A stretch of DNA of 64,000 nt. Source: an uncultured Alphaproteobacteria bacterium. GTDB taxonomy: Bacteria > Pseudomonadota > Alphaproteobacteria > HIMB59. Positions within the stretch are counted from its first letter, which is position 1. Each line of letters starts with the position of its first letter. The DNA is taken from contig CABYGG010000004.1 of the NCBI GenBank assembly GCA_902518505.1, positions 35,855 through 99,854 on the forward strand. The letters are read 5' to 3'. The position numbers and the translations under genes were made by a program. Below the pieces are notes generated by a model, which was not told the origin of the DNA, ran no database searches, and worked only from the letters and a program-made list of their open reading frames with translations. Positions 2,477-29,429 of the stretch are shown in pieces.

Positions 2477-4455
2477 TTCACACCCATTTGATCTTTTTTA
2501 AGTTTCCTTATTTCGTCTCTGAACATTGCAGCTTTCTCAAAATCTAAATTTTCAGCTGCTGATAACATTTTTTTCTCTAATTTTTGAACATGCTTTTCAA
2601 ATTTATTAGGACTCAATTTATCAATTTCAGATGTACCCACAGTATAGCTATCTTTTTCATAGATGCTCTCGATAATTTCACCAATATTTCTTTTAACTGA
2701 TTGAGGGGTAATATTATTTTTCTTATTAAATTCAATTTGTTTATTTTTTCTGTATTTTGTTTCCTCAAGAGCTGCTTTAATACTTTTAGTCATCACATCT
2801 GCATACAAAATCACCTTTCCATCTATATTTCTGGCTGCACGACCTATAGTTTGTACTAAACTGGTTTTTGACCTTAAATAACCCTCTTTGTCAGCGTCAA
2901 GGATGGCTACTAAACCACACTCAGGAATATCTAGTCCTTCTCTGAGCAAATTAATACCAATCAAAATATCAATCTCCCCAATTCTTAAAGAGCGAATAAG
3001 TTTTATTCTATCGATAGTCTCAACATCAGAATGCATATATTCAGCCTTTAAATTATGTTCTTTCAAGTAATTGGTTAAGTCCTCAGCATTTTTTTTTGTA
3101 AGAGTTGTAATCAATACTCTATTTTTATTATTGAGTTTTATTTTAATTTCACCCATTAAATCTTCCACTTGATTGACAGTTGTTTTGATCACACACTCAG
3201 GATCAATTAGACCTGTGGGTCGTATGATTTGTTCAACATACTCATTTTCGACTTCATTCAATTCCCATGGGCCAGGAGTTGCAGATAAAAAAATAGTGGG
3301 GGGACGCATCATATTCCATTCTTCAAAAGTTAAAGGCCGATTATCCAATGCAGATGGAAGTCTAAATCCATAATCTGATAATGTTTTTTTTCTTGATCGG
3401 TCACCTTTATACATTCCATTTATTTGAGGTACGGATACATGAGATTCATCAATAATAAGTAGTGAGTTGTCTGGAATAAACTCGTATAGAGTTGGTGGTG
3501 CTTCACCAGGTTGTCTTCCGCTTAAATATCTCGAATAATTCTCAATTCCTGAGCATGTTCCAGTTGCCTGAATCATTTCCAAATCAAAATTAGTTCTCTC
3601 TTTTAATCTTTGAAATTCAAGTAACTTTTTTTCCTTATCAAACTCTTCTAGTCTTATTTTTAAATCTTTCTTAATTTCTTTAATAGCGTTCTCTAATCGT
3701 GGTTTTGGTGTAATGTAATGACTATTTGCAAAGATTTTTACTTCTTCGAAGCTTTGAATGAATTCACCTGTGAGAGGATCAAACTCTTTAATATCTTCAA
3801 CCTCGTCTCCAAAAAAACTTATCCTCCAAGCTATATCCTCTAAATGCGCAGGAAAAATATCAACTCGATCTCCAGTTACTCGAAACATACCTCTTCTAAA
3901 ATCAATATTGTTTCTTTTATACTGTAACTCTACCAATTCTCTAAGAAACTCCATTAAATTAATGTTTTGTCCTTTTTTTATTTCTAAAGTCATTTTAGAG
4001 TAAGAGTCAACAGACCCAATACCGTATATACATGAAACACTTGCTACAATAATTACATCTTCCCTTTCTACTAATGATCTAGTAGCTGAGTGTCTAAATC
4101 GATCTATTTGCTCATTTATAGAGGATTCTTTTTCTATAAATGTATCTGATCGAGGTACATAAGCTTCTGGTTGATAATAATCATAATAACTTACAAAATA
4201 CTCAACTGCATTATTAGGAAACAATACTTTTAGTTCTTCATATAATTGCGCAGCCAAAGTCTTATTTGGAGCCATAATCAATGTTGGTCTATTATATCTT
4301 TCAATAACATTAGCAATTGTAAAAGTTTTTCCAGAGCCGGTTACGCCCAATAATACTTGGCTTTGTTTTCTCTTTTCTAAACCATCAATCAATTTTTTGA
4401 TTGCTTGAGGTTGATCTCCTTTTGGTTTATTTTCACTTACTATTTTAAATGGCAT
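2473..4455 (-). CDS. uvrB: Excinuclease ABC subunit B
   Basis: [10 protein letters not shown] Walker [28 protein letters not shown] and C-terminal UVR motif; 660 aa. Confidence 0.98.
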
Positions 4456-26215: not shown

Positions 26216-26827
26216 TTATTTCTTTTTTAATAAGACTATCCTAATTTTAATATCTGAACCAAAATCTTTATTGTTTGGAAGATAATTTAAAGGTCTTGAT
26301 ATATAGATTGAGTTAAAATCAGTTAATTTTTCCAGGATATTATCAAATTTTAATTCTTTCCATAAATCTACTCTATGTGTAAATATAAAATAACCATTTT
26401 TTGCAAGATAATAAGAAACTAGTTTAAAAAGTGTTTGATGATTTCTACAATATGTCATTGCACCAATAAGACTTACCACACTGTACTTATTTAATATCTG
26501 AATTTTATTCTCAAAACTTTTTTTATAAAGATATCTATATTTCCCATTTCTTTTAGATATATCTAATATTTTTCTGGAAATATCAGATCCATCACAAATA
26601 CAGTCAGGATAAACTTGTAAAAATTTATCAACAAAAAGTCCTGTGCCACATGCCAAATCTAAAATAAATTTTGGTTTAGTTTTGATATATTTTTTTAAGA
26701 TATTAACTGATTGCAATGGTGCTTTATAGTTCCATTTATATAATGTCTCATCATATGAACTTGACCAATTATCATAATAATTTTCAACGTCTTTTTTATT
26801 ACCAATGCCTTTACGAAGAGATTTCAT
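26216..26827 (-). CDS. Class I SAM-dependent methyltransferase
   Basis: YDNWSSSYDETLYKWNYKAP; ILDLACGTGLFVDKFLQ. Confidence 0.88.
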   Translation of the reverse strand: MKSLRKGIGNKKDVENYYDNWSSSYDETLYKWNYKAPLQSVNILKKYIKTKPKFILDLACGTGLFVDKFLQVYPDCICDGSDISRKILDISKRNGKYRYLYKKSFENKIQILNKYSVVSLIGAMTYCRNHQTLFKLVSYYLAKNGYFIFTHRVDLWKELKFDNILEKLTDFNSIYISRPLNYLPNNKDFGSDIKIRIVLLKKK

Positions 26828-26916
26828 TTATATTTAAAAACTAGCTAATTTAATATTATTTAACAATTAATCTTCATCATATTGTAATTTTTGTAAAATA
26901 ATGATATTTAAATTTT

Positions 26917-26997
26917 ATGGATAATAATAAGCCAAAACCTGATTGTGGTTGTTCTTGCTCATGCTGTTGCACTTGTGGTGACGGTTGTTGTCAATAA
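26917..26997 (+). CDS. 26-aa cysteine-rich microprotein (MDNNKPKPDCGCSCSCCCTCGDGCCQ), not in the ORF track
   Basis: ATG at 26917, TAA at 26995-26997; 9 Cys in residues 10-25. Confidence 0.5.
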   Translation: MDNNKPKPDCGCSCSCCCTCGDGCCQ

Positions 26998-27149
26998 ATA
27001 ATTTTAAGAAGAACAATTATTCCTAAAATAAAACCAAATATTATATCTACATATTTCCCTTTTTTTCTGGCCATAAGGTAAAAAGAGATTAAAGCTAAAC
27101 TAATTACTACAATACTTGATAAATTTGCTACAAAAGAAGAGGGCTCCAC
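26991..27149 (-). CDS. Small membrane protein (52 aa, GTG start), not in the ORF track
   Basis: VEPSSFVANLSSIVVISLALISFYLMARKKGKYVDIIFGFILGIIVLLKIIY; two hydrophobic helices; ends 7 nt into the Cys-rich ORF (convergent), immediately downstream of the peptidase. Confidence 0.4.
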   Translation of the reverse strand: MEPSSFVANLSSIVVISLALISFYLMARKKGKYVDIIFGFILGIIVLLKIIY

Positions 27150-27152
27150 TAA

Positions 27153-27878
27153 TTAATCTTCCCAATTAAAACGATTGAAAGATTTAAAAATTTCAAATAT
27201 TCCTCTTTCCCATTGTTTAGATATGTATTGATAATCTTCATCATTAATTTCAAGAGATTGTTGGTAAACTATTTTTGATAAATTATTTTTATAAACAACT
27301 AAGTCGATTGGAGGACCAACAGATAAATCTGCTTTCATTGTACTGTCCATACTTATTAACGCACATCTTGCTGCATCCCCAAGATAAGTGTCTGACTTTA
27401 CAACCCTGTCTAATATAGGCTTACCATACTTTATTTCTCCAATGACAAGGTAAGGTTTGAATTCACTTGATTTAATAAAGTTACCCTGCGGGTAAACCAA
27501 ATATAATTCTGACTCTTGATCTTTTATATGACCACCAACTATAAATGTAGAACCTAATTCAATAGTTTCTTGATTAATACCGTCTGGTGATGAGTGTTTA
27601 ACATTCAATCTTCCAATGTATTTAGCAATTTCATTTAAACTATATAAATTATTTAAATTATTCCCGTTTTTATCATCCTCTAAATCTTTTCCAATTGAAT
27701 TAAAAACTGCTTGAGAAGTAGCTAAGTTTCCCGATGTTAAAATTATAATATTTCTATCGATGCCATTATGGACATGCATTTTAGAGTAAGAATTAAAGTT
27801 ATCTAAACCCGCATTTGTTCTTCTATCAGATGCAAAAACCATCCCTTCGTTTACTTTAATTCCTACACAATAAGTCAT
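27153..27878 (-). CDS. Proteasome-type peptidase (Anbu/BPH-like)
   Basis: MTYCVGIKVNEGMVFASDRRTNAGLDNFNSYSKMHV: N-terminal Thr after Met, Ntn-hydrolase pattern. Confidence 0.9.
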   Translation of the reverse strand: MTYCVGIKVNEGMVFASDRRTNAGLDNFNSYSKMHVHNGIDRNIIILTSGNLATSQAVFNSIGKDLEDDKNGNNLNNLYSLNEIAKYIGRLNVKHSSPDGINQETIELGSTFIVGGHIKDQESELYLVYPQGNFIKSSEFKPYLVIGEIKYGKPILDRVVKSDTYLGDAARCALISMDSTMKADLSVGPPIDLVVYKNNLSKIVYQQSLEINDEDYQYISKQWERGIFEIFKSFNRFNWED

Positions 27879-27983
27879 ATTTTAATTAAATAGCTAATTT
27901 TTTAAAAATACAAACGAATATTTACATACCTTTAATCTAAACTATGCATAACTATTAACAGGCATTTATAGTATTTTTAAACA

Positions 27984-29429
27984 GTGAGTATAAATTGGAA
28001 AAATTACAATTCAAATAACAGTTATGATGAGTATTTAACTCCTGAAAAAAGTCTCAGAAAAGAGGCTAAAGTAATTTCTAAAATATTAAATAGTTACTCA
28101 GTCAAAGATTTAGAAAGAATTGAACAAAATTGTCAAAGCACAATAAGTTCTCGAGGTATTAATTTTAAAGTTTATTCAGCAGATAAAAAAGCTGCAGAGG
28201 AAAAAAAATGGCCATTAGATATCATTCCTAGGATCATACTGAAATCCCAATGGCTTAAGGTAAGAAAAGGGTTAATACAAAGGTGCAAAGCATTAAATCT
28301 TTTTATAAATGATGTCTATAATCAAAAAAAAATATTTAAGGACAATATCGTTCCAAAAGATCTGGTATTTAAATCTCAAAATTATCTAAAACAATGTGAA
28401 AGTTTTCAGCCCAAAAGAAAAATTTGGTCTCATATTTCAGGAATAGATTTAATAAGAAATATTGATGGAAAATTTTTAGTATTAGAAGATAACCTTCGTG
28501 TTCCTTCAGGTGTTTCATATATGCTTGAGAATAGAATGGTAATGGGGGAAGTTTTTCCTGAATTATTTACGCGTTATAGAGTTTCACCTATCAATCACTA
28601 TTGCAATAGACTCTATCATTGTATGTTAGATGCAATACCTTATAAAAAAAATAACCCAACAATGGTTGTATTAACACCAGGAGTTTATAATTCTGCATAC
28701 TTTGAACATTCATTTTTAGCACAGCAAATGGGAATTGCTCTTGTTGAGGGAAAAGATCTTTATGTCGAAAATGACAAAGTTTACGTAAAGACAGTTAAAG
28801 GGGGTTTAAGAGTTGATTGTATATACAGAAGGATTGATGATACTTTTTTAGATCCCAAAACATTTTTTAAAGGTTCTTTGTTAGGTGTAGCAGGTTTATA
28901 CAAATCTTACAGAAAAGGCAATGTTGGACTTCTAAATGCACCTGGAAGTGGGGTAGCAGATGATAAGGTTATTTACTCATATGTTCCTAAAATAATTAAA
29001 TATTATTTAGATGAAGAACCTAAATTGGATCAAGTAGAGACATATTTATGTCACAATAAATCCGAGAGAGATCACGTCATATCAAATATCTCAAAAATGA
29101 TAGTAAAACCAGCCGATGGATCTGGTGGTTATGGTATAATTGTAGGACCTAAATCTTCTAAATCTGAGAGAGAGGCATACATAAGAAAAATTTTACATAA
29201 CCCAAGAAATTTTATTGCTCAACCTTTAGAAATATTATCAACTACCCCAACTTTGCAGGGAAATTTAATTGAACCTCGACATCAAGATTTACGACCATTT
29301 ATTCTTTCTGGAAGAGAGACATATGTAACTATGGGTGGTTTGACGAGAGTTGCTCTTAAAAAGGGAAGCACGATAGTAAATAGCTCACAGGGTGGAGGTT
29401 CAAAAGACACTATGATCGTAGAAGATTAA
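27984..29429 (+). CDS. Circularly permuted type 2 ATP-grasp protein (GTG start)
   Basis: RISGIDLIR-like, LEDNLRVPSGVSYMLENR, IVKPADGSGGYGIIVGP, RHQDLRPFIL; 481 aa. Confidence 0.92.
   Translation: MSINWKNYNSNNSYDEYLTPEKSLRKEAKVISKILNSYSVKDLERIEQNCQSTISSRGINFKVYSADKKAAEEKKWPLDIIPRIILKSQWLKVRKGLIQRCKALNLFINDVYNQKKIFKDNIVPKDLVFKSQNYLKQCESFQPKRKIWSHISGIDLIRNIDGKFLVLEDNLRVPSGVSYMLENRMVMGEVFPELFTRYRVSPINHYCNRLYHCMLDAIPYKKNNPTMVVLTPGVYNSAYFEHSFLAQQMGIALVEGKDLYVENDKVYVKTVKGGLRVDCIYRRIDDTFLDPKTFFKGSLLGVAGLYKSYRKGNVGLLNAPGSGVADDKVIYSYVPKIIKYYLDEEPKLDQVETYLCHNKSERDHVISNISKMIVKPADGSGGYGIIVGPKSSKSEREAYIRKILHNPRNFIAQPLEILSTTPTLQGNLIEPRHQDLRPFILSGRETYVTMGGLTRVALKKGSTIVNSSQGGGSKDTMIVED

Follow-up and report, generated by a model that had tools for sequence, protein, structure and literature searches.

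A conserved nine-cysteine peptide gene in the HIMB59 (AEGEAN-169) order and its candidacy as a zinc-buffering mini-metallothionein

A gene for a 26-residue peptide with nine cysteines, located at positions 26917-26997 (+ strand) of the 64,000-nucleotide stretch of alphaproteobacterial DNA analysed in this study (the window), is a genuine single-copy protein-coding gene. Its product is probably a one-domain, metallothionein-like store or buffer for metal, with zinc as the favoured ion. More tentatively, it may be the first representative of a previously unrecognised class of bacterial micro-metallothioneins, free-standing and of independent evolutionary origin, and serve as a zinc store that would lie beside but outside the Zur-ZnuABC system. 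If so, it would rank among the smallest metallothioneins known.

Translation of the window places the ATG start codon at 26917-26919 and the TAA stop codon at 26995-26997 of the + strand. The encoded peptide, MDNNKPKPDCGCSCSCCCTCGDGCCQ, carries its nine Cys within residues 10-25. A sequence-only reading of this DNA had described a 26-residue, nine-cysteine microprotein here, and its coordinates, translation and cysteine count agree with ours. Among the 272 ATG-initiated ORFs of 20-60 amino acids in the window, this one reaches nine Cys per 17 residues and the runner-up four, and Markov-1 shuffling of the window, repeated 60 times, gave no more than five. The same reading had proposed conservation of the Cys pattern and a comparison of synonymous with non-synonymous substitutions as the check on coding, and both favour a gene. 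In the family to which the window belongs (f1), the variable columns of 22 distinct nucleotide sequences are distributed 2/2/22 over the three codon positions (pN/pS 0.067); for 26 nucleotide sequences of the sister family (f2) the distribution is 4/3/18 (pN/pS 0.058). Moreover, Ser residues common to both families are encoded by TCN codons in f1 and by AGY codons in f2, a difference that requires selection at the amino-acid level. The f1 peptides are MDNNKPKPDCGCSCSCCCTCGDGCCQ or near variants of it, and those of f2 are MKNQNPNPPKCGCSCSCCCTCEGGDCC or near variants. Across relatives the peptide is 26-27 residues long and follows the pattern C-G-C-S-C-[SP]-C-C-C-x-C-x(3-4)-C-C; none of the aligned variants contains His, and the nine Cys are invariant in all of them except one frame-altered sequence. 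In that sequence, from an f2 genome (G099; L035, approximately 3981-4142, - strand), the frame is altered after CEGGG, the final CC is lost and about 20 residues are gained, which reflects either genuine variation or a fault of the assembly.

When 100 relatives were searched at the protein level, the peptide turned up in 74 genomes, with one copy in each. A profile search detected it in 111 of 162 genomes of the order, again as a single copy, in two genera belonging to two families. The order HIMB59 also goes by the names AEGEAN-169 and SAR11 subclade V, and the GTDB families HIMB59 and GCA-002718135 belong to it (PMC10308909, PMC10734472); presumably these are the two peptide-bearing families. 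The "SAR11-like" label of the sequence-only reading was therefore close, the subclade name being a former one. Completeness-corrected genome sizes of the two families are near 1.5 and 1.7 Mb. Outside the order, profile searches across the class (337 genomes) and the phylum (399 genomes) gave just weak matches, with per-genome E values of 0.005 or worse, and these were taken as chance matches and not as relatives. A loose DNA pattern (CGCxCxCCCxC) was also scanned against the whole collection, genome and viral contigs included. Among the matches listed, most are other Cys-rich or repeat-like frames from unrelated taxa, and the true ones lie in alphaproteobacterial SAGs and MAGs of the two families and in one contig labelled Flavobacteriales. 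A tighter DNA pattern for the peptide had zero matches in viral contigs. The Flavobacteriales-labelled contig (L170, JABICI010000125.1) carries znuB-znuC-znuA and the peptide gene arranged as in the sister family, and is probably mis-binned or mislabelled. A 52-aa poly-Cys ORF of Tenebrionibacter intestinalis, ending in VCGCGCDCCCGCGHDF (L128, 2867-3025, + strand), was set aside as unrelated; it lies near another small, bacteriocin-like ORF and is possibly a Cys-rich RiPP precursor.

Nine variants of the peptide gave no match to Pfam at E<=10, peptide variants gave none to NCBIfam at E<=10, and the peptide profile matched no PDB chain at the same threshold. As its size also lies under the usual limits of gene finders, the peptide is probably missing from most annotations. 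The literature searched contains no paper joining HIMB59 with metallothioneins, and those papers in it that mention both SAR11 and metallothionein are, by title and abstract, unrelated.

The window peptide has the broad features of a metallothionein: it is small, very rich in Cys in a CxC/CC arrangement, and devoid of aromatic residues. SmtA-type proteins bind zinc within the range of free zinc of bacterial cells, and the known bacterial metallothioneins depend on a GATA-type zinc-finger fold (PMC10612145) and count His among their ligands. Like SmtA, BmtA and PflQ2MT (PF02069), the peptide is a small Cys-rich bacterial protein and is presumed to be a metal buffer. However, it is roughly half as long, has no His and lacks the residues for the GATA-type fold, for which 26-27 residues would be too few. 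A PF02069 search of 40 genomes of the order gave no match above the cut-off, whereas control genomes did give matches, and judged by this profile the peptide is not a member of that family. The fungal family-I copper thioneins, about 25 residues long (Neurospora crassa, Agaricus bisporus), share with the peptide a very small size and Cys-only ligands. The peptide differs from them in having nine Cys rather than seven, with a CCC and a terminal CC, in being bacterial, and in lying near zinc genes in one family; homology is not demonstrable. Seven-Cys fungal metallothioneins bind approximately six Cu(I), and in the fungal-IV metallothionein of Yarrowia lipolytica, which has a central CCC motif, all Cys join a Cu4 cluster (PMC13107397). 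The latter protein resembles the peptide in its central CCC and its Cys-only, His-free ligand set, but it is roughly twice as long, has a long Cys-free N-terminal region and is eukaryotic; members of its family are copper-induced. Domains with nine Cys accommodate Zn3Cys9 or Cu(I) clusters (PMC13107397). The beta-domain of animal metallothioneins (M3Cys9) likewise packs nine Cys with CxC and CC motifs into a short domain, although it is part of a larger protein with other Cys spacing and the peptide matches no PDB chain sequence.

The preference for zinc comes from the sister family. In f2 the peptide gene and znuA converge, 47-2851 bp apart, in 36 of the 36 genomes in which both were located. 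On this side of the peptide gene lies either znuA alone or znuA followed by genes for a COG0523/CobW-type GTPase, a WD40-like protein and an 84-aa protein, and in many f2 genomes these three genes separate znuA from the peptide gene; znuC-znuB-zur is divergent from znuA. The far flank varies, being a pirin-like gene or MurJ, while the znu side is constant. This linkage favours zinc as the ligand. The 84-aa protein (L038, 4101-4355, - strand), which follows the CobW/COG0523 and WD40 genes in the f2 zinc operon, has no NCBIfam match. The window's own genome also encodes znuA, znuC, znuB and zur. Its ZnuA (L294, 5588-6757, - strand) has a long His/Asp/Glu-rich insert with DDDHDGHEDEHEGHEDEDDHGHK-type repeats, and this insert differs in length among genomes.

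In the mechanism that we propose, the nine invariant Cys would jointly enclose soft metal ions as one thiolate cluster. The predicted stoichiometry is M3Cys9 for Zn(II) or Cd(II) (about three Zn(II)) or, with copper instead, some four to six Cu(I). The peptide's role would be that of a small store and buffer for marine bacteria with streamlined genomes, which take up scarce zinc by way of Zur/ZnuABC. It is predicted to bind zinc in preference to copper and to be cytosolic, as a signal-peptide-like stretch is absent, and it would be expressed independently of Zur. The metallothionein-like function suggested earlier from composition thus gains circumstantial support from absolute Cys conservation and from the constant terminal position of the f2 gene in the zinc-uptake locus. 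Several observations count against a zinc buffer: the zinc linkage is confined to f2, the f1 gene being located elsewhere and tracking an Anbu/ATP-grasp block (see below); the peptide gene has no Zur box; and the peptide is missing from many close relatives, among them G030, a complete genome from the window's genus. The position beside znuA could also be inherited rather than functional.

In both families, palindromes of the Zur-box type (GTTATANTATAAC) lie in the znuA-znuC interval, and none was found at the promoter of the peptide gene in either. By this promoter comparison, the peptide gene does not appear to be a member of the Zur regulon, which suggests that the buffer is supplied independently of zinc starvation. 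The intergenic region between the peptide gene and the divergent methyltransferase gene (26828-26916, + strand) contains a putative f1 promoter, TTGTAA - 17 nt - TATTTA, with TG before the second hexamer. Among 22 distinct f1 upstream sequences that were aligned, this arrangement, read by eye, is largely kept; scanning against a promoter consensus did not recover the hexamer pair. As the promoter ends 6 nt before the ATG, it would possibly yield a leaderless mRNA. A TAGCTAAT motif upstream of the peptide region and of Anbu was discarded, being no more frequent in the window than expected by chance.

The same thiolate peptide might instead sequester copper (or cadmium or mercury) or act as a thiol redox reserve, which we regard as unlikely. 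The ligands are Cys-only without His, and CxC/CCC-rich fungal peptides of similar size are copper thioneins (PMC13107397); the lack of a Zur box and the distance of the f1 gene from zinc genes point the same way. Against these stand the fixed f2 position beside the zinc-uptake locus and the neighbourhoods that we read, in which no recognised copper gene adjoins the peptide gene.

In f1 the surroundings are different. The window peptide gene is flanked by a gene for a SAM-dependent methyltransferase (26216-26827, - strand; PF13649) and, on the other side, by one for an Anbu-type proteasome-fold protein (27153-27878, - strand; PF00227), as the sequence-only reading had recognised. Beyond Anbu lies the gene for a circularly permuted ATP-grasp protein (27984-29429, + strand; PF14403, PF04174). 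A 52-aa membrane-type ORF (26991-27149, - strand), matched in 30 of 30 f1 loci tested, follows Anbu and lies between it and the peptide gene, whose 3' end it overlaps by 7 nt; its start codon is GTG in the window and ATG in most relatives. The order methyltransferase - peptide - Anbu - ATP-grasp is kept in most f1 loci read, although the methyltransferase gene is not always adjacent, since in some loci a SulP transporter gene and another gene put about 3 kb between it and the peptide gene. None of these three neighbours is near the peptide gene in f2, and as a clue to the peptide the methyltransferase/Anbu context noted earlier is misleading.

The f1 arrangement raises the notion that the peptide is a substrate, tag or partner of an Anbu/ATP-grasp system, and a part in peptide tagging has been suspected for Anbu operons (PMC6376114). 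In f1 the peptide is absent wherever the ATP-grasp protein is absent, and 11 of the 12 peptide-lacking f1 genomes have no Anbu, and in the twelfth the Anbu match is truncated, seemingly by the end of a contig. In one genome (G045; L368, 941-4521) an FG-GAP gene is followed directly by SulP, and ATP-grasp, Anbu and the peptide gene are all gone; this locus fits a block deletion, which falls short of proof of joint function. Other peptide-lacking genomes of the genus do not have the FG-GAP gene either. One of them, G030, is a complete one-contig genome (1,410,127 bp) from the same genus as the window that has znuA, znuB, znuC and zur and none of the peptide, Anbu, ATP-grasp and FG-GAP proteins. 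A single block deletion explains the f1 pattern, and the co-localisation of peptide and Anbu operon that holds in f1 fails in f2: there, no ATP-grasp protein was detected in 11 peptide-bearing genomes, and three show the reverse (these genomes being incomplete). Further, in G052, the sole f2 genome examined in this respect, ATP-grasp is encoded at a separate locus lacking both peptide and Anbu. Partnership with Anbu is therefore quite improbable. The usual Anbu operon has four genes, and in this order it is split: in f1 (window 27153-29429) Anbu and the divergent ATP-grasp gene have neither alphaE nor transglutaminase beside them, and at the G052 locus (L374, 5179-8374) an ATP-grasp ORF is grouped with alphaE-like and transglutaminase-like ORFs.

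The sequence-only reading had also offered a RiPP precursor. In that case an enzyme, for example the methyltransferase encoded next to it, would convert the Cys/Ser-rich part to a metallophore or an antibiotic. In its favour, the window pairs a short Cys-rich peptide with a neighbouring SAM methyltransferase gene. Yet the methyltransferase gene is absent from the f2 neighbourhood and lies some 3 kb off in several f1 genomes, and its best scores, weak ones, are to small-molecule methyltransferase models. The neighbourhoods of the two families have no maturase or other enzyme gene in common, which makes a RiPP unlikely, and the first Cys is preceded by only 9-10 residues (nine in the window peptide), so that the usual leader is absent. 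We consider this origin very improbable.

Mycobacterial leaderless poly-Cys ORFs, which act as cysteine-responsive attenuators, are short as the peptide is, and the poly-Cys run and the possibly leaderless f1 start recall them. However, the peptide gene has no downstream gene on the same strand to attenuate, the genes beyond it being convergent (Anbu and the 52-aa gene in f1, znuA or the 84-aa gene in f2), and the protein is under purifying selection that is also strong in residues beyond the Cys run. An attenuator role is thus highly improbable. That the frame is a chance Cys-rich one and no gene, as its length below the usual size limits and the lack of library matches might suggest, is practically ruled out by the substitution pattern, with pN/pS near 0.06 in both families and a Ser codon set that switches between them, and by its standing as an outlier against the Markov-1 shuffles.

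Bacteria of the HIMB59/AEGEAN-169 group are widespread in the sunlit ocean, an environment with very little zinc and copper. For a genome so streamlined, a peptide dedicated to metal buffering would be notable, and because the gene is present in some close relatives and absent from others, the trait can be tested against environmental metal gradients. If the predicted metal binding is true, the peptide would provide: a minimal model of a thiolate cluster; a missing piece in the metal budgeting of abundant plankton; and an example of a microprotein that alters a trait assignment.
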